A DNA stretch of 23,728 nt from a virus. The position numbers and the translations under genes are program-made. Below the pieces are notes generated by a model. That model worked only from the letters and a program-made list of their open reading frames with translations. It had not been told where the DNA came from and did not search any database. Shown piece after piece: positions 7,410 to 17,295 of this stretch (its first letter is position 1; each line of letters starts with the position of its first letter). The stretch covers positions 1 through 23,728 of the IMG/VR virus record IMGVR_UViG_3300010297_003417, one strand, 5' to 3'.

Positions 7410-8849
7410 ATGATTTTAGGATGGAGTGAAGGATTTCATGATGCAGCAGCCACAATATTAGATGATTATGGTAATATAGTCTTTGCATCACATTCAGAAA
7501 GATTTTCAGGTAAAAAGCACGAAAAGTTTATATCTAATGAACTTAAAAAACACATTAATGATAATTTTGAAACACCAGTTAAAGCTTTTTTCGAAAAACC
7601 GTTATTAAAAAAATCTAGACAGCTATATGCTGGTCAGTTTAAAACTGTTTTTTCAAAAAGACAGTTAGCTTGGAACCCTACGGTAACGTTTCATCACCAT
7701 TTATCCCATGCTGCTGCAGCTTTTCAAACTTCAAATTATAATGAAGCAGCTGCTGTAGTTGTTGATTCAATTGGAGAATGGGACACAACGACAATATGGA
7801 AATGTTGGTATGAAGATGGAAAAGCAAAATATAAAAAAGCTTATTCAAAAAAATACCCTAACAGTATTGGTTTATGGTATACTGCATTAACACATCATGT
7901 CGGTCTTAAACCATTAGATGAAGAATATATTTTTATGGGTATGGCAGCTTATGGTAAGTTTAATAGAGAGCTGTCAGAAAAGTTAAGCTTTTTATTTAAT
8001 CATAACTTACATAAGGGTATATCAAAAGATTTATCTAAAAATTATTCATTAGGTAAATATAAACCGGTAGATATAGCATTTAATGCACAAGTAGTATTAG
8101 AATATAGATTAAAAAATTTATTTAAAGAAGCATTAAGAATTTCAGATAATGTGGTTTATGGTGGTGGTGTAGCATTAAATTGTGTAGCTAATTCCGAACT
8201 TTATAGACTATGTGAAGGCAATTTATGGATTATGCCTAATCCAGGTGATGCAGGGGGATCATTAGGTGCAGCTGCATTAGCATATGGTGGTAAAGTTAAC
8301 TGGCAACACCCTTACTTAGGGTTTAATATTCAACCATCTAAACCATTGAAAGCATTAGCTAAAGATATTGTTATTCATATTAAAAGAAATGGTATGTGCG
8401 GAGTTGCAGTTGGCCCCGCTGAGTTTGGTCCTAGGGCTTTAGGTAATAGATCTTTATTAGCCGATCCTAGAGGACCAGAAGTAAAAGATTTAGTTAACAC
8501 CATTAAACGCAGACAAAAATTCAGACCTTTTGCCCCTGCAGTGCTAGAAGAAGATACTGGGCTATATTTTAACCCTAATTGGAAATCTCCTTATATGCAA
8601 ATGGTTGTTGATTGCAAAAAAGGTGATGAGTTACCAGCCATTATTCATAATGACGGTTCATCAAGAGTTCAAACTGTAGGAAAGGATGACCCAACTATTT
8701 TCAGACTTATATTAGAAGAATGGAAAAAACGTACTGGGTGTTCTGTACTACTCAATACATCCTTAAACATTAGAGGTGAACCAATGGTTAATAATGTTAT
8801 GGATGCCAAAAGATTCGAAAACAAATACGGAGTTAAAGTCTTCTATTAA
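7410..8849 (+). CDS. Carbamoyltransferase, NodU/TobZ family
   Basis: The 479-residue protein has both halves of the family. The N-terminal Kae1-like ATPase part shows HHHLSHAAAAF (96-105, metal-binding His), VVVDSIGEWDTT, and YGGGVALNCVAN with PNPGDAGGSLGAA. The C-terminal YrdC-like part shows GPAEFGPRALGNRSLLADPR, KFRPFAPAV and LLNTSLNIRGEP. Such enzymes make carbamoyl-adenylate from carbamoyl phosphate and ATP, then transfer the carbamoyl group to a hydroxyl on a sugar, antibiotic or, in some phage-related members, 5-hydroxymethylcytosine. It ends the modification island. GAGG precedes ATG 7410, the likely start. Acceptor unknown. Confidence 0.92.
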   Translation: MILGWSEGFHDAAATILDDYGNIVFASHSERFSGKKHEKFISNELKKHINDNFETPVKAFFEKPLLKKSRQLYAGQFKTVFSKRQLAWNPTVTFHHHLSHAAAAFQTSNYNEAAAVVVDSIGEWDTTTIWKCWYEDGKAKYKKAYSKKYPNSIGLWYTALTHHVGLKPLDEEYIFMGMAAYGKFNRELSEKLSFLFNHNLHKGISKDLSKNYSLGKYKPVDIAFNAQVVLEYRLKNLFKEALRISDNVVYGGGVALNCVANSELYRLCEGNLWIMPNPGDAGGSLGAAALAYGGKVNWQHPYLGFNIQPSKPLKALAKDIVIHIKRNGMCGVAVGPAEFGPRALGNRSLLADPRGPEVKDLVNTIKRRQKFRPFAPAVLEEDTGLYFNPNWKSPYMQMVVDCKKGDELPAIIHNDGSSRVQTVGKDDPTIFRLILEEWKKRTGCSVLLNTSLNIRGEPMVNNVMDAKRFENKYGVKVFY

Positions 8850-8857
8850 ACATACGC

Positions 8858-8864
8858 CTAAATA
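8858..8864 (+). promoter_or_regulatory. Possible T4-type late promoter element
   Basis: CTAAATA resembles the TATAAATA late box of T4-type phages and sits in the only short gap before the membrane-protein/curli gene run. It is just 8 bases before the ATG at 8873, so transcription would start almost at the start codon. The assignment is weak. Confidence 0.25.
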
Positions 8865-8872
8865 ATGGTGTC

Positions 8873-9169
8873 ATGGAACAGTTTTTTGAACTAATCGGTG
8901 ACGTTGGAGCTCCTATAGCGGGCTCTCTCGTCATGGGATTTTTTATATTTACAGTTATTAAGCAGATCTTAGAAGGTATTGTTGACGATATAAACACGCT
9001 TACTGGATTCTGCACCATGTTAGAAAATAGAGCTAGGACAATGAGTAATGAAATGATGAAAATTGATTTACTAGTATCTAGTGCGTTAGAGTTAAGACCT
9101 GATATTGATAGAATATCAAGAGCTGAAAACTTTATAGAAGATGGTAAAATAGATACGCGGAGAGATTAA
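8873..9169 (+). CDS. Small membrane-anchored coiled-coil protein, first of a pair
   Basis: The 98-residue protein begins with a short amphipathic segment (MEQFFELIGDVG), one hydrophobic helix (about 13-36, APIAGSLVMGFFIFTVIKQI), and a charged helical tail. The next gene has the same layout and a similar N-terminus (xxLIxDxGxPIxxSxxMGxFIxxxx), so they look like tandem paralogues. The first residues recall the small YvrJ-type phage membrane proteins, but this is a weak resemblance. A holin-type or envelope role is possible. It ends in TAATG, sharing a base with the next start, and opens the curli-containing gene run. Confidence 0.7.
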   Translation: MEQFFELIGDVGAPIAGSLVMGFFIFTVIKQILEGIVDDINTLTGFCTMLENRARTMSNEMMKIDLLVSSALELRPDIDRISRAENFIEDGKIDTRRD

Positions 9170-9453
9170 TGGAAAGTGAAGTTTCACAAATTTCTCAGCT
9201 TATTTCAGATTATGGCTTTCCTATTATCATGTCAGTTGGTATGGGATACTTTATATACTTTATCTGGAATTTTATTGGTGAAAAAATAGATCCTCAGATT
9301 GAGAAAATGCATTTTGCATTAATCAAAGTGATAGATCAAACACGCATGTTAGACCAGGATATTATTAGATTACAACAAAAAGTAAATGTTGTTCTCGAAT
9401 ATAGAGCAGTAGAGGAAATAAAAAAGAAAGCCGATGAAATTAAAAAGAAATAA
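9169..9453 (+). CDS. Small membrane-anchored coiled-coil protein, second of a pair
   Basis: A 94-residue protein with one membrane helix (about 14-37, DYGFPIIMSVGMGYFIYFIW) and a long charged helix ending in Lys-rich repeats (EEIKKKADEIKKK). It shares topology and spaced residues with the preceding protein. The 3' end overlaps csgF by 20 bases, so it is probably translated together with the curli genes. The two proteins could form a membrane complex; the sequence does not say whether they serve lysis or secretion. Confidence 0.72.
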   Translation: MESEVSQISQLISDYGFPIIMSVGMGYFIYFIWNFIGEKIDPQIEKMHFALIKVIDQTRMLDQDIIRLQQKVNVVLEYRAVEEIKKKADEIKKK

Positions 9454-9913
9454 TTTATTTTTAGTACTATTTACATTACCACTTTATTCTACAGAAATAG
9501 TCCATAAATTTAAAAACCCTTCATTTAGTGGTATAGGCACTGGTGCACATTATCTTACTATTGAAAACCAAGAACATTCAAGAAAGAAAGCAATAGAAGA
9601 AGCCCTTGAAGCTGCAAAAAAAGCAGCTGAAAGAGAAGCAGATAACACCACGTTAGCTAAGTTTATTCGTAACTTAGAATCAAGAATATACGCACAATTT
9701 GCTAAACAATTAGTAGAATCAATGTTTAGTAATGATAACCCTGCATCATTTGGATCATTTGCCTTAGAAGGTAATATTGTAACATGGGAAGTTGTTACTG
9801 CTGAAGATGGTTCAGAATGGATTAAATTGACAATAACAGCAACAGATGGTACTGAGACGGTTATAGAAATACCAGTTGGAACTGGAAACTATGCTCAGGA
9901 TCCTGATGGTTAG
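9434..9913 (+). CDS. csgF: CsgF-like curli assembly factor
   Basis: The 159-residue protein has a signal peptide (MKLKRNNLFLVLFTLPLYS) followed at once by the CsgF mature signature: EIVHKFKNPSFSGIG, matching the Phe-x-Asn-Pro-x-Phe-x-Gly segment of E. coli CsgF, which inserts in the CsgG pore and forms its second constriction. A helical stretch with Ala/Glu-rich repeats follows (about 50-100), then a beta-rich end (residues 111-148) equivalent to the CsgF C-terminal domain that presents the nucleator at the surface. In bacteria CsgF couples CsgG to curlin nucleation outside the cell. It overlaps csgG by 8 bases. The length is slightly above the usual ~140. Confidence 0.88.
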   Translation: MKLKRNNLFLVLFTLPLYSTEIVHKFKNPSFSGIGTGAHYLTIENQEHSRKKAIEEALEAAKKAAEREADNTTLAKFIRNLESRIYAQFAKQLVESMFSNDNPASFGSFALEGNIVTWEVVTAEDGSEWIKLTITATDGTETVIEIPVGTGNYAQDPDG

Positions 9914-10808
9914 AATCTTATTAACATTATTAATTTTACAAGGTTGTGCATCTGTACCAAAATGGTCTGATGGTCCAGGTAACTGTGCTTATGAAACTGG
10001 TAAATATAGTGAGGGGTTTAGTAAAGATGTTGTTACAGGTATAGCTAAGCCAATAACTAGAAAATATATTTGTGTTGAGCAACCATCTGTAGTTAAATTA
10101 CCATCTTATATTCAATTATTAGAATTACCACCAGCAAAGGAACAGCCAGTGGTTGCAGTATATCAATTTTTAGATAAAACCGGTCAAAGAAAAGCTAGAG
10201 ATGGAATTGCTGATTTTTCTACTGCTGTAACTCAAGGTGGTGTTGAAATGGTTGTTGATGCACTAAAGACTGCAGGTGAAGGTACATGGTTTAGAGTTGC
10301 AGAAAGAAATGGTATAGACAATTTAGTTAGAGAAAGACAAATTATAAGAAGTGCTAGGCAAGATTTTGCTAAGCAAAACGATCAAGAAAAATTTCAAGAT
10401 TTGAATCCACTCTTATTTGCTGGTATGATTATAGAGGGTGGTATTATTGGTTATGACACTAATATCAGGTCAGGTGGTCTTGGGGCCAGAACACTTGGTA
10501 TTGGAATCAGTAAACAATATAGGCAAGATGTTGTTACTGTAAGTATGAGAGCTGTTTCAGTTCTAACAGGTGAAGTTTTACTAAACGTCCAAACTCGTAA
10601 GACTATTCTGAGCTACGGTTCAGGGGGAGACGTCTTCCGTTTTATTGAGCAAGGTACTCAGCTTATTGAGTTAGAGGACGGTGTTGGTAATAATGAATCA
10701 GTGACATTTGCAGTACGAACAGCCATTGAGGCTGCAGTATTGGAATTAATACACCAAGGCCATTCACGTGGTTATTGGACAATCGAGGGATATAACGAAA
10801 ATGAATAA
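9906..10808 (+). CDS. csgG: CsgG-like curli secretion pore lipoprotein
   Basis: From ATG 9906 the protein is 300 residues with a short lipoprotein signal (MVRILLTLLILQGC; lipobox L-Q-G-C, lipidated Cys14). The mature part follows CsgG closely: AKEQPVVAVYQFLDKTGQRK, FSTAVTQGGVEMVVDALKTA, FRVAERNGIDNLVRERQIIR, a membrane-spanning hairpin region around GIGISKQYRQDVVTVSMRAV, and TGEVLLNVQTRKTILSYG. CsgG nonamers form the ungated outer-membrane channel for curlin. The frame is open to ATG 9876, but the lipobox distance and the AGGA at 9898-9901 favour 9906. Overlaps with csgF and the curlin gene (8 bases each) imply coupled expression. This places the product in the host outer membrane. Confidence 0.93.
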   Translation: MVRILLTLLILQGCASVPKWSDGPGNCAYETGKYSEGFSKDVVTGIAKPITRKYICVEQPSVVKLPSYIQLLELPPAKEQPVVAVYQFLDKTGQRKARDGIADFSTAVTQGGVEMVVDALKTAGEGTWFRVAERNGIDNLVRERQIIRSARQDFAKQNDQEKFQDLNPLLFAGMIIEGGIIGYDTNIRSGGLGARTLGIGISKQYRQDVVTVSMRAVSVLTGEVLLNVQTRKTILSYGSGGDVFRFIEQGTQLIELEDGVGNNESVTFAVRTAIEAAVLELIHQGHSRGYWTIEGYNENE

Positions 10809-11535
10809 ACTTTTAAGTATAGCATTGCTATTGTCGACATCTTTTATTTTCGCACAAGCCACTGATGATAACGAGATTAACATAACTCAAACTGGTGACA
10901 CTTTATCTTTATACATAGACCAAATTGGTTTTGGAAACAAGATAGGTGGTGATAATGGATCTTCTGGATCTTTATCAGCTATGTCAATTACCGGTACAAG
11001 CTTATCGTTTGATCTTGATTTTACAGGAGATCAAAACTTATTGTTTGGTCCTGTTGTAGCAGATAGTTCTACTTATCTGCTTAATTTAACAGGGGATAGT
11101 AATAGTATTGATTGGAATATAGGATATATCGGAAGTGCTGATAGTTCAAATATTAACTTTGATATTACTGGTGACAGTAATACTTTTGATTTAGATCAAG
11201 GTTATATTTACAGTGCTGAAAGACTTGATGCCGATTTAATACTAATTGGTAGCTCGAATATTTTTGATATTGATTGGGAGTCTGATGATATTATATGGAA
11301 CTTTGATATAACTGGTGGTTCAAATAACATTAACACACTTCAAAGCGATGGTGCTAATGAAATTACATTTGACCTAACTGGAGATTCTGCAGATATAGAT
11401 ATCACACAGATTACAGGTACATGTTCAGGACAAAATGCTGGATGTGCTACACCAAATGGTATAATTACTATGGATGTAACTTCAGATAATGCAACAATTC
11501 AAATTGTACAAAAAGATTCAACTACCGATTCTTAA
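10801..11535 (+). CDS. Curlin-like repeat protein 1 (putative CsgA/CsgB-type amyloid subunit)
   Basis: The 244-residue product starts with a signal peptide (MNKLLSIALLLSTSFIFAQA) and then consists of about eight 20-30-residue repeats, each built around (I/F)xFDxTGDSNxxDxx. The first, NITQTGDTLSLYIDQIGFGN, has the classic curlin Q-x-G-x-x-N pattern; later units replace the Gln ladder with Asp. The composition is rich in Ser, Asn, Asp, Gly, Ile and nearly free of Lys/Arg, as expected for a secreted beta-solenoid fibre protein. Two Cys (208, 215) flank a loop in the seventh unit. Its position directly after csgF-csgG makes it the likely substrate of the pore. ATG 10801 is chosen because it starts the signal peptide; the frame is open to 10768. 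Confidence 0.85.
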   Translation: MNKLLSIALLLSTSFIFAQATDDNEINITQTGDTLSLYIDQIGFGNKIGGDNGSSGSLSAMSITGTSLSFDLDFTGDQNLLFGPVVADSSTYLLNLTGDSNSIDWNIGYIGSADSSNINFDITGDSNTFDLDQGYIYSAERLDADLILIGSSNIFDIDWESDDIIWNFDITGGSNNINTLQSDGANEITFDLTGDSADIDITQITGTCSGQNAGCATPNGIITMDVTSDNATIQIVQKDSTTDS

Positions 11536-12640
11536 TCTATTATTAATCAGTGGGGTCAGCTTTGCTGACTCCATTGGTGATATCATTGAACAGACGGGTT
11601 CAACTCAATTAATTAGAGACAAAGAAGAAATATCAGTTACAGAAACATATTTACCAGGTATTGAATTATACGATACAGCTGAAACCTCAAATGGTAGAAT
11701 GCTTATTGAATTTAAAGATAAGGCAGAACTGGCATTAACTGAGCATACTAGCGTATTGATTGATGAAATAATTTATGATCCAAACCCAAATTTATCTAAA
11801 ATGTCTTTAAAAATGGTACAAGGTACAGCCCGATTTGCTTCAGGTTCTCTTGGATTAGTCAATAAAGCTAATATTGATATACAGACCCCAACAGCCACAA
11901 TAGGTATTAGAGGAACAGATTTTACCACAACTATTGATGAAATAGGAAGAAGTTTGATTATGCTTTTACCAGACGATAAGGGTGACCCTTCAGGTGAAAT
12001 AATTATAACTAATGCAGGTGGATCAATAACATTAAATGAAGCTTATCAAGCCACTTTAGTTCAATCATTTGATAAAATTCCAGAACAATCTTATGTTGTT
12101 GATAATATTAATAATAGTATGATAGATAATATGTTTATTGTTAATCCCCCTCCAGAAGTAAAACGACAAATGGAAGATGAAGCAGCTGATAGTGCTTATG
12201 CAGATCAAGGGGTATTAGATATTGATTTTTTGGAATATAATGAATTAGAAAAAGATATAGATGATTATTTAGAAGAAAATGAAGATAAAAATAGTAGAAT
12301 AGATTATGATGCATTAAGCGGTGATTTTTTACCAAATTTATTAGACGTCGTGGAAGAATTATTGAGAACTACTGCTGCATTAGGTGATGCACAAGGTACA
12401 GATAGTTTAGCTGGATTTTCTTTAAAAGGTGCAGAATTTGGTTTTAATAAAGATTCACAATATAATATTTTTCAAGAAGATGGAAGATTAATTGTTTTTA
12501 GAGACATAAATGGTAGAATTACTATATCATTTCAACCAGGTGCTAATTTTAGTTTAACAACAGAAGTAGAAGGATATGCTGGTACTATTACAGGTAACAA
12601 TGGTGAAGATATAATAGTGGTGATCAAGCAAACAAACTAG
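11489..12640 (+). CDS. Secreted FecR-domain protein
   Basis: The 383-residue protein begins with a signal peptide (positive N-terminus FKLYKK, hydrophobic core LPILNLLLISGVSFA, cleavage near residue 26). Residues about 45-148 form a FecR domain: LPGIELYDTAETSNGRMLIE, LALTEHTSVLID, KMVQGTARFASGSLG and IQTPTATIGIRGTDF. The rest is acidic (about 205-300) with a beta-rich C-terminus. There is no membrane anchor or anti-sigma domain. In bacteria, stand-alone periplasmic FecR proteins are often encoded beside CHASE2-cyclase receptors, and a CHASE2 cyclase lies three genes downstream here. The ATG at 11489 lies inside the curlin gene (47-base overlap) and is needed for the signal peptide. Confidence 0.85.
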   Translation: MQQFKLYKKIQLPILNLLLISGVSFADSIGDIIEQTGSTQLIRDKEEISVTETYLPGIELYDTAETSNGRMLIEFKDKAELALTEHTSVLIDEIIYDPNPNLSKMSLKMVQGTARFASGSLGLVNKANIDIQTPTATIGIRGTDFTTTIDEIGRSLIMLLPDDKGDPSGEIIITNAGGSITLNEAYQATLVQSFDKIPEQSYVVDNINNSMIDNMFIVNPPPEVKRQMEDEAADSAYADQGVLDIDFLEYNELEKDIDDYLEENEDKNSRIDYDALSGDFLPNLLDVVEELLRTTAALGDAQGTDSLAGFSLKGAEFGFNKDSQYNIFQEDGRLIVFRDINGRITISFQPGANFSLTTEVEGYAGTITGNNGEDIIVVIKQTN

Positions 12641-12651
12641 CTATATATTAG

Positions 12652-12861
12652 ATGCCTATTAAATTCAGACAATCAGAAAAGGTTTTTAAGAAAGACGGTC
12701 CTAAAATAGCACCGGTTAAACATTATTACATAAAACAAACACCTACCACCGAATTAATTGATTATATCAATAAAGGTCAAAAAAATAAAGTGAAACAAAA
12801 ATGTAGAAATGAATTAACAAGAAGGGGTGTAAGACTCGTCTGGACAGCTAATGGCAGTTAA
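12652..12861 (+). CDS. Conserved small basic phage protein
   Basis: The 69-residue protein is basic with a shape I recall from many marine T4-type phages: MPIKFRQSEKVF at the start, KHYYIKQTPTTELIDYI in the middle and KCRNELTRRGVRLVW at the end. It has no signal or membrane segment, so unlike its neighbours it stays in the cytoplasm. Function unknown; nucleic-acid binding is plausible from charge. It separates the FecR gene from the second curlin gene and overlaps the next gene by 11 bases. Confidence 0.75.
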   Translation: MPIKFRQSEKVFKKDGPKIAPVKHYYIKQTPTTELIDYINKGQKNKVKQKCRNELTRRGVRLVWTANGS

Positions 12862-13006
12862 AAGCAAATCTTTTCAAAAATTTCATGTACCTACCGCTGG
12901 AATACGTGGTAAAAAAACTTCTATTGGCCTAAATAACTTAGCAACGTCTACAATGAATAAAAATAAAAGACGCTCACTAAAAAAATATCGTGGTCAAGGA
13001 AAATAA
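12851..13006 (+). CDS. Very small basic protein (51 residues)
   Basis: A 51-residue frame runs from ATG 12851 to TAA 13006, overlapping the preceding gene by 11 bases and the GTG start of the second curlin-like gene by 17. It has many Lys/Arg residues (VKSKSFQKF, GIRGKKT, NKNKRRSLKKYRGQGK) and no hydrophobic core, suggesting nucleic-acid binding. The chained overlaps and the lack of any other frame in this gap support it as a real gene. No family recognised. Confidence 0.6.
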   Translation: MAVKSKSFQKFHVPTAGIRGKKTSIGLNNLATSTMNKNKRRSLKKYRGQGK

Positions 13007-13709
13007 TTCAGATAAAGGTTTATTAGCAATAGGGTGGATAATTTTATTTACCTGGTGTGCTCTTGCGTTTGGTGACGATAATAAAATTACTATTGACCAA
13101 ACTGGTGGTGATAACTTCAATCTCACAATCAATCAATTTGGTTCAAACAATGTCATCAAAATGTATGATCCATATTCTTATGTCAATGGTGCAAATATGT
13201 CATTACATTTTTATCAAAACAATGATGGTTCAAATCAAAACACAATAGACCTTTGGCACTTAGATGGAAATAATAATAGTATTCGTTGGGGTCAGGGTGG
13301 TAAACTAGATGATGCATCTGATACTACATTCTATTTTGATGGAACTGAAAGTGGTGGTCATTACGCTAACTTTGATATACACGGAAGTTATAATAATATT
13401 GCAGGTTGGCAAGCAAACTCAGGTAATGGTGCTCACACATATAATCAACTAATCTTTAGTAGTTATAATGATGTATATGTAGAACAACGAGGTGATGGTG
13501 ATAAAACATTAAATCTTACTATTAATAATGATGGTAATGACGTAGAAGTATTTCAAAAGAATACTGGACATACAGCAACAATTAACTTATCAGGTTCAGA
13601 CCCAACCATACTCTATCTATTACAACAAGGATATACATCACAAACTTATTCACTTTCACAAAACTGTGTAACTGTAGGTGGCTGCAGTGTATCAGTCACA
13701 CAACAATGA
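12990..13709 (+). CDS. Curlin-like repeat protein 2
   Basis: The 239-residue product starts at GTG 12990 and carries a signal peptide (hydrophobic GLLAIGWIILFTWCALAFG, residues 10-28). The mature protein opens with KITIDQTGGDNFNLTINQFG, a curlin-type repeat with the Gln-x-Gly pattern, then has Asn/Gly/Ser/Thr-rich strands of 20-25 residues (NTIDLWHLDGNNNSIRWGQG, NFDIHGSYNNIAGW, DVYVEQRGDG, DVEVFQKNTG), less regular than in protein 1. A Cys pair (226, 232) lies near the end, as in protein 1. It is probably a second fibre subunit or nucleator, comparable with the CsgA/CsgB division. Its stop overlaps the cyclase start as ATGA. Confidence 0.8.
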   Translation: MVKENNSDKGLLAIGWIILFTWCALAFGDDNKITIDQTGGDNFNLTINQFGSNNVIKMYDPYSYVNGANMSLHFYQNNDGSNQNTIDLWHLDGNNNSIRWGQGGKLDDASDTTFYFDGTESGGHYANFDIHGSYNNIAGWQANSGNGAHTYNQLIFSSYNDVYVEQRGDGDKTLNLTINNDGNDVEVFQKNTGHTATINLSGSDPTILYLLQQGYTSQTYSLSQNCVTVGGCSVSVTQQ

Positions 13710-15532
13710 AATATTTAACATCAGTGTGGACAGCTATTGCAGTTCTTTTCTTATTTGTATTAATTAGAGTATTTGATCCTTTTTTAATTGAATCAACTAG
13801 ATTAAATTATTTTGATTATTTGCAAAGATCTCATGAAGTAATAGAATCTCATCAAATTGTATTAGTTGATATTGATGAAAAATCTATACAAAAACATGGC
13901 CAATGGCCTTGGCCTAGAAAAGAATTAGCGTATGAATTAAATAATATACAACCTGGCAATTTAATAGCTATGTCTATTATATTTTCAGAAAAAGATAGAT
14001 TTAATGGTGATTTTGTTTTATCAGAAACATTTCAATATTACCCAACTGTATTAGCAACAGCACCCACTAATCAAATACAAACAGAAAGAAAATTACATGT
14101 TGGTACAGCTACATTAGGTAGATATCCAGCTCAAGATTTTACCATTGATTATCCTGGTATATTATTACCAATAGAAACATTATCAAATGTATCAGCTGGT
14201 AATGGAGCTATCAGTTCAGTACCTGATATTGATGGTGTGGTTAGAAAGTTACCTATTGTTGTATCTGCTAATAAAAAGGTTTATCCATCATTTGCATTAG
14301 AAGTAATTAGAACTGCCGTAGGAGATATTTCATATCAAATAAAAACTAATGAATTAGGTATAGAATGGGTAAGAATACCTGCATATAAAGAGATTGCTAC
14401 ATTAAATAATGGAACTGTATATAATACATACTGGAACAAGTTTAAACGTGTGAGCATTAGTGAGCTTAGAGGAGAGAAACTATCTCCAGGTAGTATCCTA
14501 ATAGTAGGACCTACATTTGAAGGAACTAATATTATACCAACTCCTGTTGGAGCAATGTACCCTCATGATGTGCAAGCTAATTTAATTAAAACTATAATTG
14601 ACGGTACAGTACTTAAACGTCCTGATTATTTTTCTTTTGTTGAGATAGTAGCTCAAGTATTTCTTGGTCTTCTTTGTCTCGTTCTATTGTATCAAGCTGC
14701 CGTTTGGATAAGTGGAGTCGCCAGCGTTGTCTTGATTGTCTCTGCTGCTTGGCTTTCTGTTTGGCTTTTTTCATCAAAATCCTTGTTATTTGATCCTACA
14801 TGGATTATAATATCAACTATATTAGTATTTAGTGTTGGAGCATTCAACCAGTTCTATAACAATTTTAAACTAAGACAACAGATTAAAAAACAATTTGGTA
14901 CATATGTATCACCAGATCTTGTTAAACAATTACAAGATGATCCATCATTGCTTAAATTGGGGGGTGAAAGAAAAACCATGTCTTTTATGTTTATGGACAT
15001 ATGTGGATTCACACCTATAAGTGAACATTATAAAAATAATGATGATCCAGAAGGGTTAGTAGAACTGGTTAATAAGTTTTTAGATGTTCAGACAAAGATA
15101 ATACTAAATAATAATGGTACGGTTGATAAGTATATGGGAGATTGTATCATGGCATTTTGGAATGCCCCATTACCATGTGAAAATCATGCAGATATGGCCG
15201 TAAAAACTTCTCTCGAAATAATAGAAGCTACAAAAAAATTAAATGAAGAACTTAAACCTCTTAATCTCCCTCCTATCAATGTTGGTATTGGTGTCAATAC
15301 CGGTGAATGCATCGTCGGTAACATGGGTTCAGAATCTAGATTTGACTATTCCGTCATTGGAGATGCCGTCAACCTTGCCGCTAGACTCGAAAGCCAAACA
15401 CGAAATTATGATGGGGTGGACTTGTTGTTATCACAATTCACTGCTGGAGCGTGTACAGAAAGAGCATTCAGAAAAGTTGATACAGTCCAGGTTAAAGGAA
15501 AATCAGAAAAGGTTGACATCTTTACAGTTTAG
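13706..15532 (+). CDS. CHASE2-domain class III adenylate/guanylate cyclase
   Basis: This 608-residue receptor-type cyclase has an N-terminal membrane helix (4-22), an extracytoplasmic CHASE2 domain (about 30-305; IVLVDIDEKSIQKHGQWPWP, DIDGVVRKLP, GSILIVGPT), three membrane helices (about 311-385) and a class III cyclase domain (about 420-605). Catalytic residues are complete: metal Asp431 (FMDICGFT) and Asp479 with substrate Lys475 (VDKYMGDCIMAFW), Ser549 at the base-selecting position, and Asn555/Arg559 of VNLAARLE for the transition state. It should make cAMP (or cGMP) in response to a periplasmic signal. The ATGA start overlap couples it to curlin 2. A cyclase of this kind in a phage-like genome is unusual. 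Confidence 0.93.
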   Translation: MKYLTSVWTAIAVLFLFVLIRVFDPFLIESTRLNYFDYLQRSHEVIESHQIVLVDIDEKSIQKHGQWPWPRKELAYELNNIQPGNLIAMSIIFSEKDRFNGDFVLSETFQYYPTVLATAPTNQIQTERKLHVGTATLGRYPAQDFTIDYPGILLPIETLSNVSAGNGAISSVPDIDGVVRKLPIVVSANKKVYPSFALEVIRTAVGDISYQIKTNELGIEWVRIPAYKEIATLNNGTVYNTYWNKFKRVSISELRGEKLSPGSILIVGPTFEGTNIIPTPVGAMYPHDVQANLIKTIIDGTVLKRPDYFSFVEIVAQVFLGLLCLVLLYQAAVWISGVASVVLIVSAAWLSVWLFSSKSLLFDPTWIIISTILVFSVGAFNQFYNNFKLRQQIKKQFGTYVSPDLVKQLQDDPSLLKLGGERKTMSFMFMDICGFTPISEHYKNNDDPEGLVELVNKFLDVQTKIILNNNGTVDKYMGDCIMAFWNAPLPCENHADMAVKTSLEIIEATKKLNEELKPLNLPPINVGIGVNTGECIVGNMGSESRFDYSVIGDAVNLAARLESQTRNYDGVDLLLSQFTAGACTERAFRKVDTVQVKGKSEKVDIFTV

Positions 15533-15842
15533 AAAAAGTGAGCCTGCACATGATGTTGTTTGGTTTGCTTTTTGGACATTACAAGCAGCAGATGTGTGGA
15601 CAACACAACGAGGAATGGATTATAATTGTGTATTTGAACAAAACCCTCTTTTACCAAAAGTACCACATTTAGATAGATTAATAGCTCATAAAATAATTTT
15701 TTTACACCCTTTTTACTTTTTTCAAACTGAAGATGTATTGACTCAACAAGAAATGTTGATTCCTACATTATTAGGTGCATATGTTATACATAGTAACCTG
15801 AGAGTGATTAAACGAGCAAAAAGAAATTGTTCTAAGAGGTAA
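15513..15842 (+). CDS. Small membrane-associated protein; start uncertain
   Basis: The part beyond the cyclase gene codes for about 109 residues from a possible TTG at 15513 (20-base overlap). It has hydrophobic stretches VVWFAFWTLQAADVW, LIAHKIIFLHPFYFF and LIPTLLGAYVI, plus a conserved-looking ADVWTTQRGMDYNC...NPLLPKVP block typical of small phage membrane proteins. The same frame is open back to ATG 15243, and that longer 199-residue version begins with a convincing signal peptide (MKNLNLLISLLSMLVLVSIP) but overlaps the conserved cyclase domain by 290 bases. I list the shorter form; the longer one is discussed as a finding. Function unknown. Confidence 0.6.
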   Translation: MTSLQFRKSEPAHDVVWFAFWTLQAADVWTTQRGMDYNCVFEQNPLLPKVPHLDRLIAHKIIFLHPFYFFQTEDVLTQQEMLIPTLLGAYVIHSNLRVIKRAKRNCSKR

Positions 15843-15851
15843 AATAAATAG

Positions 15852-15894: not shown

Positions 15895-16344
15895 ATGTTT
15901 AATAAACAAAAAGTTATCGATCAGCTTAAAATTGATGAAGGTGTAGTAAACGAGATATACCTTGATCATCTTGGCTATCCTACTTTTGGTATTGGTCATT
16001 TAATTCTTGAATCTGATCCAGAACATGGAAAAGATGTAGGTACACCAGTTTCAGAAGATAGGGTGCTAGAAGCTTTTGATCATGATTTAGATATCACTGT
16101 AAACGAGTGTAGAGTTTTATTTCCTGATTTTGATGAAAAATTAGATGAAGTTCAAGAAATTTTAATTAACATGATGTTTAATATGGGTAGAACACGTCTA
16201 TCTAAATTTAAAAAATTTATCGGTGCATTAAACGATAAAAATTATAATGAAGCAGCAGATCAAATGATGGATTCAAAATGGTACCATCAAGTAGGTAATA
16301 GATCTGTTAGATTAGTTGAAAGGATGAGAGCATTAAGTGAGTAG
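15895..16344 (+). CDS. e: T4-type lysozyme (endolysin)
   Basis: The 149-residue protein matches phage T4 lysozyme (glycoside hydrolase 24): the catalytic triad is Glu15 in KIDEGVV, Asp24 in YLDHLGYP and Thr30 in TFGIGHLI, in the same spacing as T4 E11-D20-T26. INMMFNMG and the C-terminal SKWYHQVGNRSVRLVERMR correspond to the helical lobe and end of T4 lysozyme. It cuts the peptidoglycan glycan strand at lysis. There is no signal peptide, so a holin is needed; none is certain here. GGAG lies six bases before the ATG. It overlaps the next gene by 8 bases. Confidence 0.95.
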   Translation: MFNKQKVIDQLKIDEGVVNEIYLDHLGYPTFGIGHLILESDPEHGKDVGTPVSEDRVLEAFDHDLDITVNECRVLFPDFDEKLDEVQEILINMMFNMGRTRLSKFKKFIGALNDKNYNEAADQMMDSKWYHQVGNRSVRLVERMRALSE

Positions 16345-16594
16345 TATTCAAGAGCAAATAGATAAAAAAATTATTACTGTAAAAGATTTTACCTATCAAA
16401 TAGAAAGATTTGTTAGTGAAAAGAGATGTGAGTATCTAGATGCTCTTATTTACTATGCAGAAAAAAATAATGTAGAAGTAGAAAGCATAGCTTCATTAGT
16501 AAAAAACAGCCATGTATTAAAAGCTAAATTAGCTGCAGAATCTGAAGACAATAATCTAATAAAAAGAAAATCAGGTAAGAAATTACCTATTTAA
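16337..16594 (+). CDS. 33: gp33-like late transcription co-activator
   Basis: The 85-residue protein starts at GTG 16337 within the end of the lysozyme gene. It resembles the short gp33 proteins of marine T4-type phages: a helical N-terminus with FVSEKRCEYLDALIYYAEKN, a second helix VEVESIASLV, and a C-terminus ending RKSGKKLPI. gp33 bridges host RNA polymerase and the gp45 sliding clamp to activate late promoters. The order 33-(oxygenase)-59-32 mirrors T4's 33-59-32, which supports the call more than sequence alone. It shares one base with the next gene (TAATG). Confidence 0.68.
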   Translation: MSSIQEQIDKKIITVKDFTYQIERFVSEKRCEYLDALIYYAEKNNVEVESIASLVKNSHVLKAKLAAESEDNNLIKRKSGKKLPI

Positions 16595-17295
16595 TGTATA
16601 AAGTTTTTAAAAATTTTCTTTCCGACGAGCATATTAGAGATATCTATGATATTGCTCATTCTTCGATGAAAGATTGGAGACCAGCTGGTATAGTTCAGCC
16701 TAAAAGTAAAATAATTAGGAATAGTACAAGGATTACCGATCAAAAAGTATTTTTCCCTCCAAAGTATTTTGTAAACAAATTAACAACCTTATTTGATAAC
16801 GACGACCATTTTAAAAGATCTGGTGGTTACGCTTGGGTTGAAAACTGGGCAATTTTACGCTATAATGGTAAAGATGAAGGTAGGTTTAAATGGCATACAG
16901 ATGATTTGGATTTCTTTTTATATAATGATGATCATGTAGATGATGCTGGCAGACCTGATGTAGAAAAAATTTTTATTCATAATGCAAGACCAAAAAGAAA
17001 AATATCGATCTCTATTCAATTAAATAATCAAAATGAATTTGAAGGTGGTGAACTACTTATTCAACGCAATACAGAGAAAGCCGAGTTTTTTGAAGGGGGA
17101 GAGCTATCACATGAGCATAATTATTTACGTCAAACAGCTGACAGAGTAGTTTTAAATAAGGGTGATATGGCTGTTTTTGATTCATGGATGGGACATGAAG
17201 TAACACCAGTAAAAAGTGGTATAAGGGATGCATTAGTTATATGGGTGGCAGATAAAGAAGAATGGGACAAGTTCAATTTAATGATGGATGTTTAA
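16594..17295 (+). CDS. 2OG-Fe(II) oxygenase (prolyl hydroxylase-like)
   Basis: The 233-residue protein has the full metal and cosubstrate site: H101-x-D103 in FKWHTDDLDFF, H201 in DSWMGHEVTPV and R211 in SGIRDALVIWV, with the FEGGELLIQ strand typical of P4H/PKHD hydroxylases. It is intact and of usual length. It is inserted between gp33- and gp59-like genes, a position that in T4 has no such gene, so it has been added to the core replication block. The substrate may be a protein of phage or host. TAATG joins it to the gp33-like gene. Confidence 0.88.
   Translation: MYKVFKNFLSDEHIRDIYDIAHSSMKDWRPAGIVQPKSKIIRNSTRITDQKVFFPPKYFVNKLTTLFDNDDHFKRSGGYAWVENWAILRYNGKDEGRFKWHTDDLDFFLYNDDHVDDAGRPDVEKIFIHNARPKRKISISIQLNNQNEFEGGELLIQRNTEKAEFFEGGELSHEHNYLRQTADRVVLNKGDMAVFDSWMGHEVTPVKSGIRDALVIWVADKEEWDKFNLMMDV

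Follow-up and report, generated by a model that had tools for sequence, protein, structure and literature searches.

The window analysed here, the viral stretch IMGVR_UViG_3300010297_003417 of 23,728 nt, carries a set of genes that appears to constitute a phage-borne curli (type VIII) secretion system (T8SS) together with its own substrates. A sequence-only reading of this DNA had proposed CsgF, CsgG and two curlin-like secreted proteins at positions 9434-13709, co-oriented and with overlapping junctions, inside a T4-type phage genome. Pfam matches and gene coordinates bear out these four genes and their arrangement, and gp32, tail tube and baseplate hub families in the flanks bear out the T4-type context. 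As a complete unit the list fell short: five further genes belong to it, namely two small leading genes (TM1 and TM2), a gene for a FecR-domain protein, a gene for a CHASE2 receptor with a nucleotide cyclase, and an overprinted gene named D9. Families were assigned to the module proteins by matches to Pfam, PHROG and profiles of solved structures; for CsgF, CsgG, FecR, CHASE2 and the cyclase, both Pfam families and solved structures gave matches.

Gene order in the window and in related loci

All genes of the module are located on the plus strand. Adjacent genes overlap by 8 nt (csgF/csgG and csgG/curA), 47 nt (curA/FecR) and 4 nt (curB/cyclase). A scan of viral contigs for CsgG gave at least 574 relatives, the best 80 of which were kept for locus comparison, and in these the order TM1-TM2-csgF-csgG-curA-FecR-curB-cyclase was kept with few gaps. 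A second scan, seeded with TM1 and TM2, yielded 78 new loci; the gene order was fixed in the 39 complete loci fetched with TM1, and csgG was present in 68 of the 78. Nine of the ten contigs without csgG stop at most 900 bases from TM1 and one is rearranged. All loci were picked by similarity to the window, and such fractions describe this phage branch rather than curli phages overall. On every sufficiently long contig from either scan, curlin-like genes adjoin csgF/csgG; the sequence-only reading had raised the case of related phages keeping csgF/csgG with no secreted repeat gene nearby, and this case was not encountered on such contigs.

TM1 (98 amino acids, 8873..9169) is the first gene of the operon and is predicted from its sequence to have one membrane span followed by a coiled coil, while TM2 (94 amino acids, 9169..9453) is a diverged paralogue of it, likewise a one-span coiled-coil protein. 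Both belong to phrog_18771, and TM1 has no Pfam family. TM1 adjoins csgF/csgG wherever the contig continues, with one rearranged exception, and among cultured phages the two genes are confined to those carrying the module. Weak matches relate the TM2/TM1 group to the holin family phrog_4898 (12 of 25 members, best 2.6e-4; another comparison with this family gave 1e-4 at best).

Judging by position, TM1 and TM2 appear to be the genes published as histidine kinases. This assignment was rejected, since 98 and 94 amino acids are far too short and no kinase family occurred in the Pfam and PHROG matches. In a single locus, L275, TM1-TM2 are followed by cyclase, FecR and CurA genes in reversed order, by inversion or assembly error.

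A probable CsgF-CsgG export pore

CsgF (9434..9913) matches PF10614 (E = 2e-12) and contains the N-terminal F-K/R-N-P-x-F region of this family in the form FKNPSF; its weak match to the solved CsgF (0.15) spans this region. CsgG (9906..10808, ATG start, with TTG at 9876 as a possible alternative) matches PF03783 (E = 4e-51) as an outer-membrane lipoprotein pore. Its lipobox reads LILQGC, and the family profile matches the solved E. coli CsgG at 6e-64.

Curlin-like substrates

The claim of two curlin-like repeat substrates was upheld by PF07012 matches in homologues, by a profile match to a solved curlin and by an excess of motif units over shuffled sequences. CurA (10801..11535) is a curlin-like, presumably secreted protein with a C-terminal cysteine pair and a PF07012 curlin repeat scoring 21.0 bits against a cut-off of 20.7. 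CurB (12990..13709), the second such protein, has a C-terminal C-x5-C pair, and its family profile matches the solved curlin subunit 8c50 (2.7e-5). At E<=1, PF07012 is matched by 29 of 29 CurA homologues and by 23 of 31 CurB homologues. Units of the type hydrophobic-x-hydrophobic-x-Q-x-G occur twice in CurA (0.08 in shuffles, P = 0.003) and four times in CurB (0.13 in shuffles; none of 5000 shuffles reached this number). CurA further has a repeat periodicity with lags of 11, 22 and 33 (z = 5); for CurB a periodicity was not supported. The CurB profile also detects curlins adjoining csgG in bacterial genomes, e.g. at 7e-16 in locus L148. C-terminal cysteine pairs are found in 48 of 50 CurA and in 37 of 37 CurB homologues, while the Pelagibacter phage HTVC008M and the phage Melnitz lack the pair in CurA. 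The predicted models of both proteins are all-beta, with predicted template modelling (pTM) scores of 0.71 and 0.72.

FecR protein and CHASE2-cyclase

Between the two substrate genes lies the gene for a FecR-domain protein (11489..12640; PF04773, E = 1.3e-8) with a signal-peptide-like N-terminus. Its last strand, IIVVIKQTN, is curlin-like. Each of the 48 distinct phage homologues has a C-terminus of the form [hydrophobic]-x-[hydrophobic]-x-Q-x, which the 21 bacterial FecR proteins checked all lack; 32 of 37 CurB proteins end likewise. Because this tail resembles curlin strands, it may hint at a contact between FecR and curlin.

The following gene after curB (13706..15532) encodes a CHASE2 receptor joined to a class III nucleotide cyclase (PF05226, 5e-35; PF00211, 3e-19), the catalytic residues of which are intact in the alignment (metal-binding Asp431 and Asp479, Lys475, Asn556 and Arg560). 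FecR genes adjoining CHASE2-type cyclases were also found in bacteria without curli genes, and a FecR/CHASE2 kinase pair has been described in a biofilm operon (PMC5192318).

In the cyclases of Melnitz (L003) and L092 the sequence GDAVNLAAR is replaced by GDSVSTAAR and GDAVSTAAR, respectively. With the transition-state Asn of the class III enzymes thereby lost, these two cyclases may be altered or inactive.

A candidate ninth gene overprinted on the cyclase

D9 (199 amino acids, 15243..15842) is read in the +1 frame of the cyclase gene. It starts within the region for the catalytic domain, overlaps the cyclase gene by 290 nt and extends past its stop codon. The overlap encodes a start that resembles a signal peptide (LLSMLVLVSIPVNASS in the window), followed by a linker; a conserved domain, DVWTTxxGLxYxCVxExNPLL, lies beyond the cyclase stop. 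In relatives the frame is open as well, has a conserved ATG and continues for about 100 codons past the cyclase stop.

Conserved cyclase residues make this ATG likely in any case (resampled probability about 0.7), which renders the ATG alone weak evidence, and the hydrophobic stretch partly follows the cyclase codons, its signal hydrophobicity being significant in some loci only. Both points would suit a +1 frame that is an accidental by-product of a conserved cyclase, with the true gene starting after the cyclase stop; we regard this as highly improbable, given that frame openness is an all-or-none property that goes with the presence of D9. In an initial set of 23 cyclases followed by D9 the frame was open for 96-139 codons, whereas synonymous-codon redraws of the same genes gave means of 5-21 open codons and almost never kept it open (P<=0.001 in each of the 23). 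Among 73 distinct cyclases the distribution was bimodal, 53 having 97-140 and 20 having 2-41 open codons. Synonymous constraint was confined to the overlap set: there, the synonymous difference was 0.334 in the last 96 codons versus 0.446 elsewhere (ratio 0.75, P = 1.6e-5), compared with 0.559 versus 0.561 in the 20 control cyclases (ratio 0.996, P = 0.55), where the P values serve as guides because the sequences are related.

An unbiased scan used only the part of D9 beyond the cyclase stop as query, which cannot favour overlap. Among the 80 loci obtained, the overlap with the cyclase is at least 270 nt in 56 and 56 nt in 5, another 3 have shortened open reading frames (ORFs), and the remaining 16 lack a cyclase directly upstream; nearly all of these loci contain the module. 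Several of the 16 non-overlapping copies sit between FecR and the cyclase. These possess their own signal peptide, an unrelated linker and the same domain, and thus share the plan of signal peptide, linker and domain, which suggests that in the overlapping D9 genes the signal and linker are read from cyclase DNA. We therefore consider the overlapping frame to be, in all likelihood, real coding sequence. D9 was not found in the cultured phages searched, including HTVC008M and Melnitz.

If the frame is coding, a second frame of about 290 nt within the region encoding an enzyme's catalytic domain has been kept in many marine phages, where gene finders that restrict overlaps would probably miss it. 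D9 would neatly exemplify how an old gene read in a new frame can supply a new N-terminus, here apparently a secretion signal.

A late promoter in front of TM1

The T4 late promoter is TATAAATA. Directly 5′ of TM1, at 8857..8864 on the plus strand, the window has CCTAAATA, a degenerate copy with one mismatch to the T4-type late promoter NATAAATA. The exact TATAAATA occurs in the window in two copies, neither of them at the module, and the module promoter is detectable only through comparison of relatives. In 29 of 43 distinct relatives NATAAATA is present within 60 nt upstream of TM1, in most of them with its first base 13 nt ahead of the ATG. For comparison, 2000 draws of random 60-mers taken from these loci had a mean of 0.8 and a maximum of 5, and shuffled upstream regions a mean of 0.9 and a maximum of 5. 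Among the relatives compared, NATAAATA was not found before TM2, csgG, curA or FecR and was rare before csgF, curB and the cyclase. Since many copies come after a hairpin and a run of T, the operon starts at TM1 and, judging from the motif, is probably transcribed late. A generic sigma-70 promoter scan gave no excess over shuffles. Late timing narrows the possible roles of the module to assembly, lysis and its aftermath. Of the purposes suggested by the sequence-only reading, among them clumping of cells, a superinfection block and changes to the outer membrane, an early block of superinfection is made less likely by the late promoter.

Another late-promoter-like sequence, AATAAATA, is located at 15843-15850, about 45 nt before a lysozyme gene (15895-16344). 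The place of the lysozyme gene relative to the module varies between loci; a lysis cassette, as the proximity of this gene might suggest, was set aside on this ground.

Published modules and bacterial counterparts

Earlier work on pelagiphages has already described this kind of module together with its substrates (PMC9599517, PMC7029224, PMC9004378). Genes csgF and csgG were described in pelagimyophages, for which 'sibling capture' was proposed (Zaragoza-Solas 2020, PMC7029224). The OM43 (Methylophilales) phage Melnitz carries the genes as well, with a proposed role in lysis (Buchholz 2022, PMC9004378). Wittmers et al. 2022 (PMC9599517) identified CsgA/B substrates, FecR and the cyclase, observed expression and found curli modules ocean-wide, at all 65 survey stations. 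Their order CsgF-CsgG-CsgA/B-FecR-CsgA/B-cyclase, with one or two small genes in front, is that of the window, but the leading genes were called histidine kinases and the module was given up to seven proteins. Relative to these accounts, D9, the late promoter, the reassessment of TM1 and TM2 and a bacterial operon are new; the papers, as searched, mention neither a late promoter nor a ninth gene in overlap, nor FecR plus cyclase within a bacterial curli operon.

HTVC008M and Melnitz have the full published module in the same order and at the corresponding genomic place, with proteins 30-51% identical to those of the window; they differ in CurA, which is without the cysteine pair, and in D9, which was not found; the +1 frame of their cyclases closes within 4-7 codons. 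With E. coli csgBAC-csgDEFG the window shares the CsgG and CsgF families and curlin-type repeats. It differs by its diverged substrates and by the additional FecR, CHASE2-cyclase, TM1/TM2 and D9. In agreement with the sequence-only reading, csgC, csgD and csgE were not seen among the genes examined.

A bacterial operon of similar composition was found on the chromosome of Hyphomonas sp. TMED17 (L091), where csgF, csgG, a curlin gene, FecR and a CHASE2-cyclase form one operon with ordinary bacterial genes on both sides, on a contig of 705,567 bases. It has the gene order of the phages and its CsgG groups with theirs, but it lacks TM1/TM2, has one long curlin and a FecR without curlin-like tail, and its +1 frame is open for 3 codons. 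According to the abstract of PMC9599517, FecR and cyclase lie outside the T8SS operons of bacteria, a statement from which the Hyphomonas operon departs. FecR and cyclase can thus belong to cellular curli operons, and phages need not have invented the signalling arm. On a gammaproteobacterial contig (L101, 8176-13782) curlin, csgF, csgG, two more curlins and FecR are present; no adjoining cyclase was found. CsgG of L101 also groups with the phages (support 100/98, long branches). Phages as one clade without the two bacterial operons had p-AU 0.06 in the approximately unbiased test, again with long branches. At the thresholds used and among the matches examined, a search for bacterial FecR-cyclase operons gave csg-linked ones only in L091 (398 order-level and 385 class-level genomes) and L101 (369 genomes); the remaining FecR matches in bacteria were other large or generic FecR proteins.

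Several curli-phage contigs (L084-L090, L092-L095, L097 and L110) have been binned into unrelated bacterial genomes (Bacteroidota, Planctomycetota, Rhodobacteraceae, Synechococcus and Pelagibacter). Most of them carry TM1/TM2, and their genes could be mistaken for bacterial curli genes.

A probable late export system and its alternatives

Most likely, the module serves to export fibres late in infection and has a signalling arm of its own, based on cyclic adenosine monophosphate (cAMP). We put the probability that the unit TM1-TM2-csgF-csgG-curA-FecR-curB-cyclase-D9 is a functional late export system at roughly 60%. Fibres, their secretion and their purpose are what we infer from the genes. 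In the infected cell's outer membrane, CsgG and CsgF would form a pore like that of E. coli; CurA and CurB would pass through it and, at a late stage, assemble on the cell or close to it. FecR, by means of its curlin-like end, may read curlin in the periplasm and signal via the CHASE2 receptor, raising cAMP. TM1 and TM2 would act in the inner membrane, possibly linking the system to lysis, and D9 might be exported and assist either the sensor or the assembly process. The most likely time of use for the fibres would be at or just before lysis, e.g. for holding debris, virions and neighbouring cells together.

Several observations weigh against this interpretation. Only one repeat is recognised in CurA, and CurB has none above the PF07012 cut-off, scoring 14.6 bits. 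To our knowledge, cysteine pairs are unusual in curlins. The profile and fold checks suggested by the sequence-only reading diverged: profiles agreed with curlins, but a Foldseek search with the CurA and CurB models returned no PDB match at E<=0.001, only weak matches to generic beta-solenoids, and curlin 8c50 itself scored E 2.6 and TM 0.12. The late promoter of the window itself is degenerate. No CsgE match was obtained among the module proteins scanned, although CsgE is dispensable for curli (PMC7029224), and no clumping was seen in Melnitz-infected cultures (PMC9004378).

A more far-reaching version, tentative and on balance doubtful, is that a curli operon of bacteria has become, in phages, an exporter that acts late and monitors itself, in which FecR, through its curlin-like end, senses the system's own substrates and passes the signal to the cyclase, while the cyclase DNA, read in the other frame, yields a secreted ninth component. 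Signal and component would then come from one stretch of DNA.

Following a published proposal (PMC9004378), CsgG/CsgF could instead act as a gated pore or pinholin-like timer of lysis, with fibres incidental. The late promoter, the weak similarity of TM1/TM2 to small phage holin-like proteins and the lysozyme gene downstream agree with such a role. We nevertheless judge it unlikely: the CsgG pore belongs to the outer membrane whereas pinholins operate at the inner one, no sufficiently long locus lacks either substrate gene, and the lysozyme gene has no fixed place relative to the module.

Alternatively, the repeat proteins might not be curlins: the phage could export or carry beta-solenoid proteins of another kind, belonging to the surface or the virion. 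The assorted beta-solenoids among the weak fold matches and the borderline Pfam scores of the window's own copies would fit, but the PF07012 matches of homologues, the profile match to a solved curlin and the constant position beside csgF/csgG make this distinctly unlikely; unrelated tail-fibre modules are likewise not favoured.

That an open CsgG channel gives the infected cell access to nutrients of larger size or to iron compounds, FecR being an iron regulator (PMC7029224, PMC9599517), would accord with the FecR domain and with the lack of a visible CsgE gate, but is very unlikely, as FecR is here a signal-peptide protein beside a CHASE2 receptor and not an inner-membrane anti-sigma factor, bacterial FecR/CHASE2 pairs are biofilm-linked sensors (PMC5192318) or adjoin CHASE2-type cyclases without curli genes, and the conserved substrates and late expression would be left unexplained.

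Further features of the locus

Two small, unrelated ORFs on the plus strand are inserted in the operon between FecR and CurB and are probably not components of the system. The first, of 69 amino acids (12652..12861), is placed elsewhere in related loci, e.g. 3′ of the cyclase, and is not at the corresponding place in HTVC008M and Melnitz. The second (12851..13006), read from the sequence, would encode a small basic protein of 51 amino acids. An Rfam scan of the window gave no match, and hence no sign of the riboswitch reported for Melnitz. As in HTVC008M, the flanks of the module contain Nol-like carbamoyltransferase and 2-oxoglutarate-Fe(II) (2OG-Fe(II)) oxygenase-like genes (7410-8849, 975-1694 and 16594-17295).

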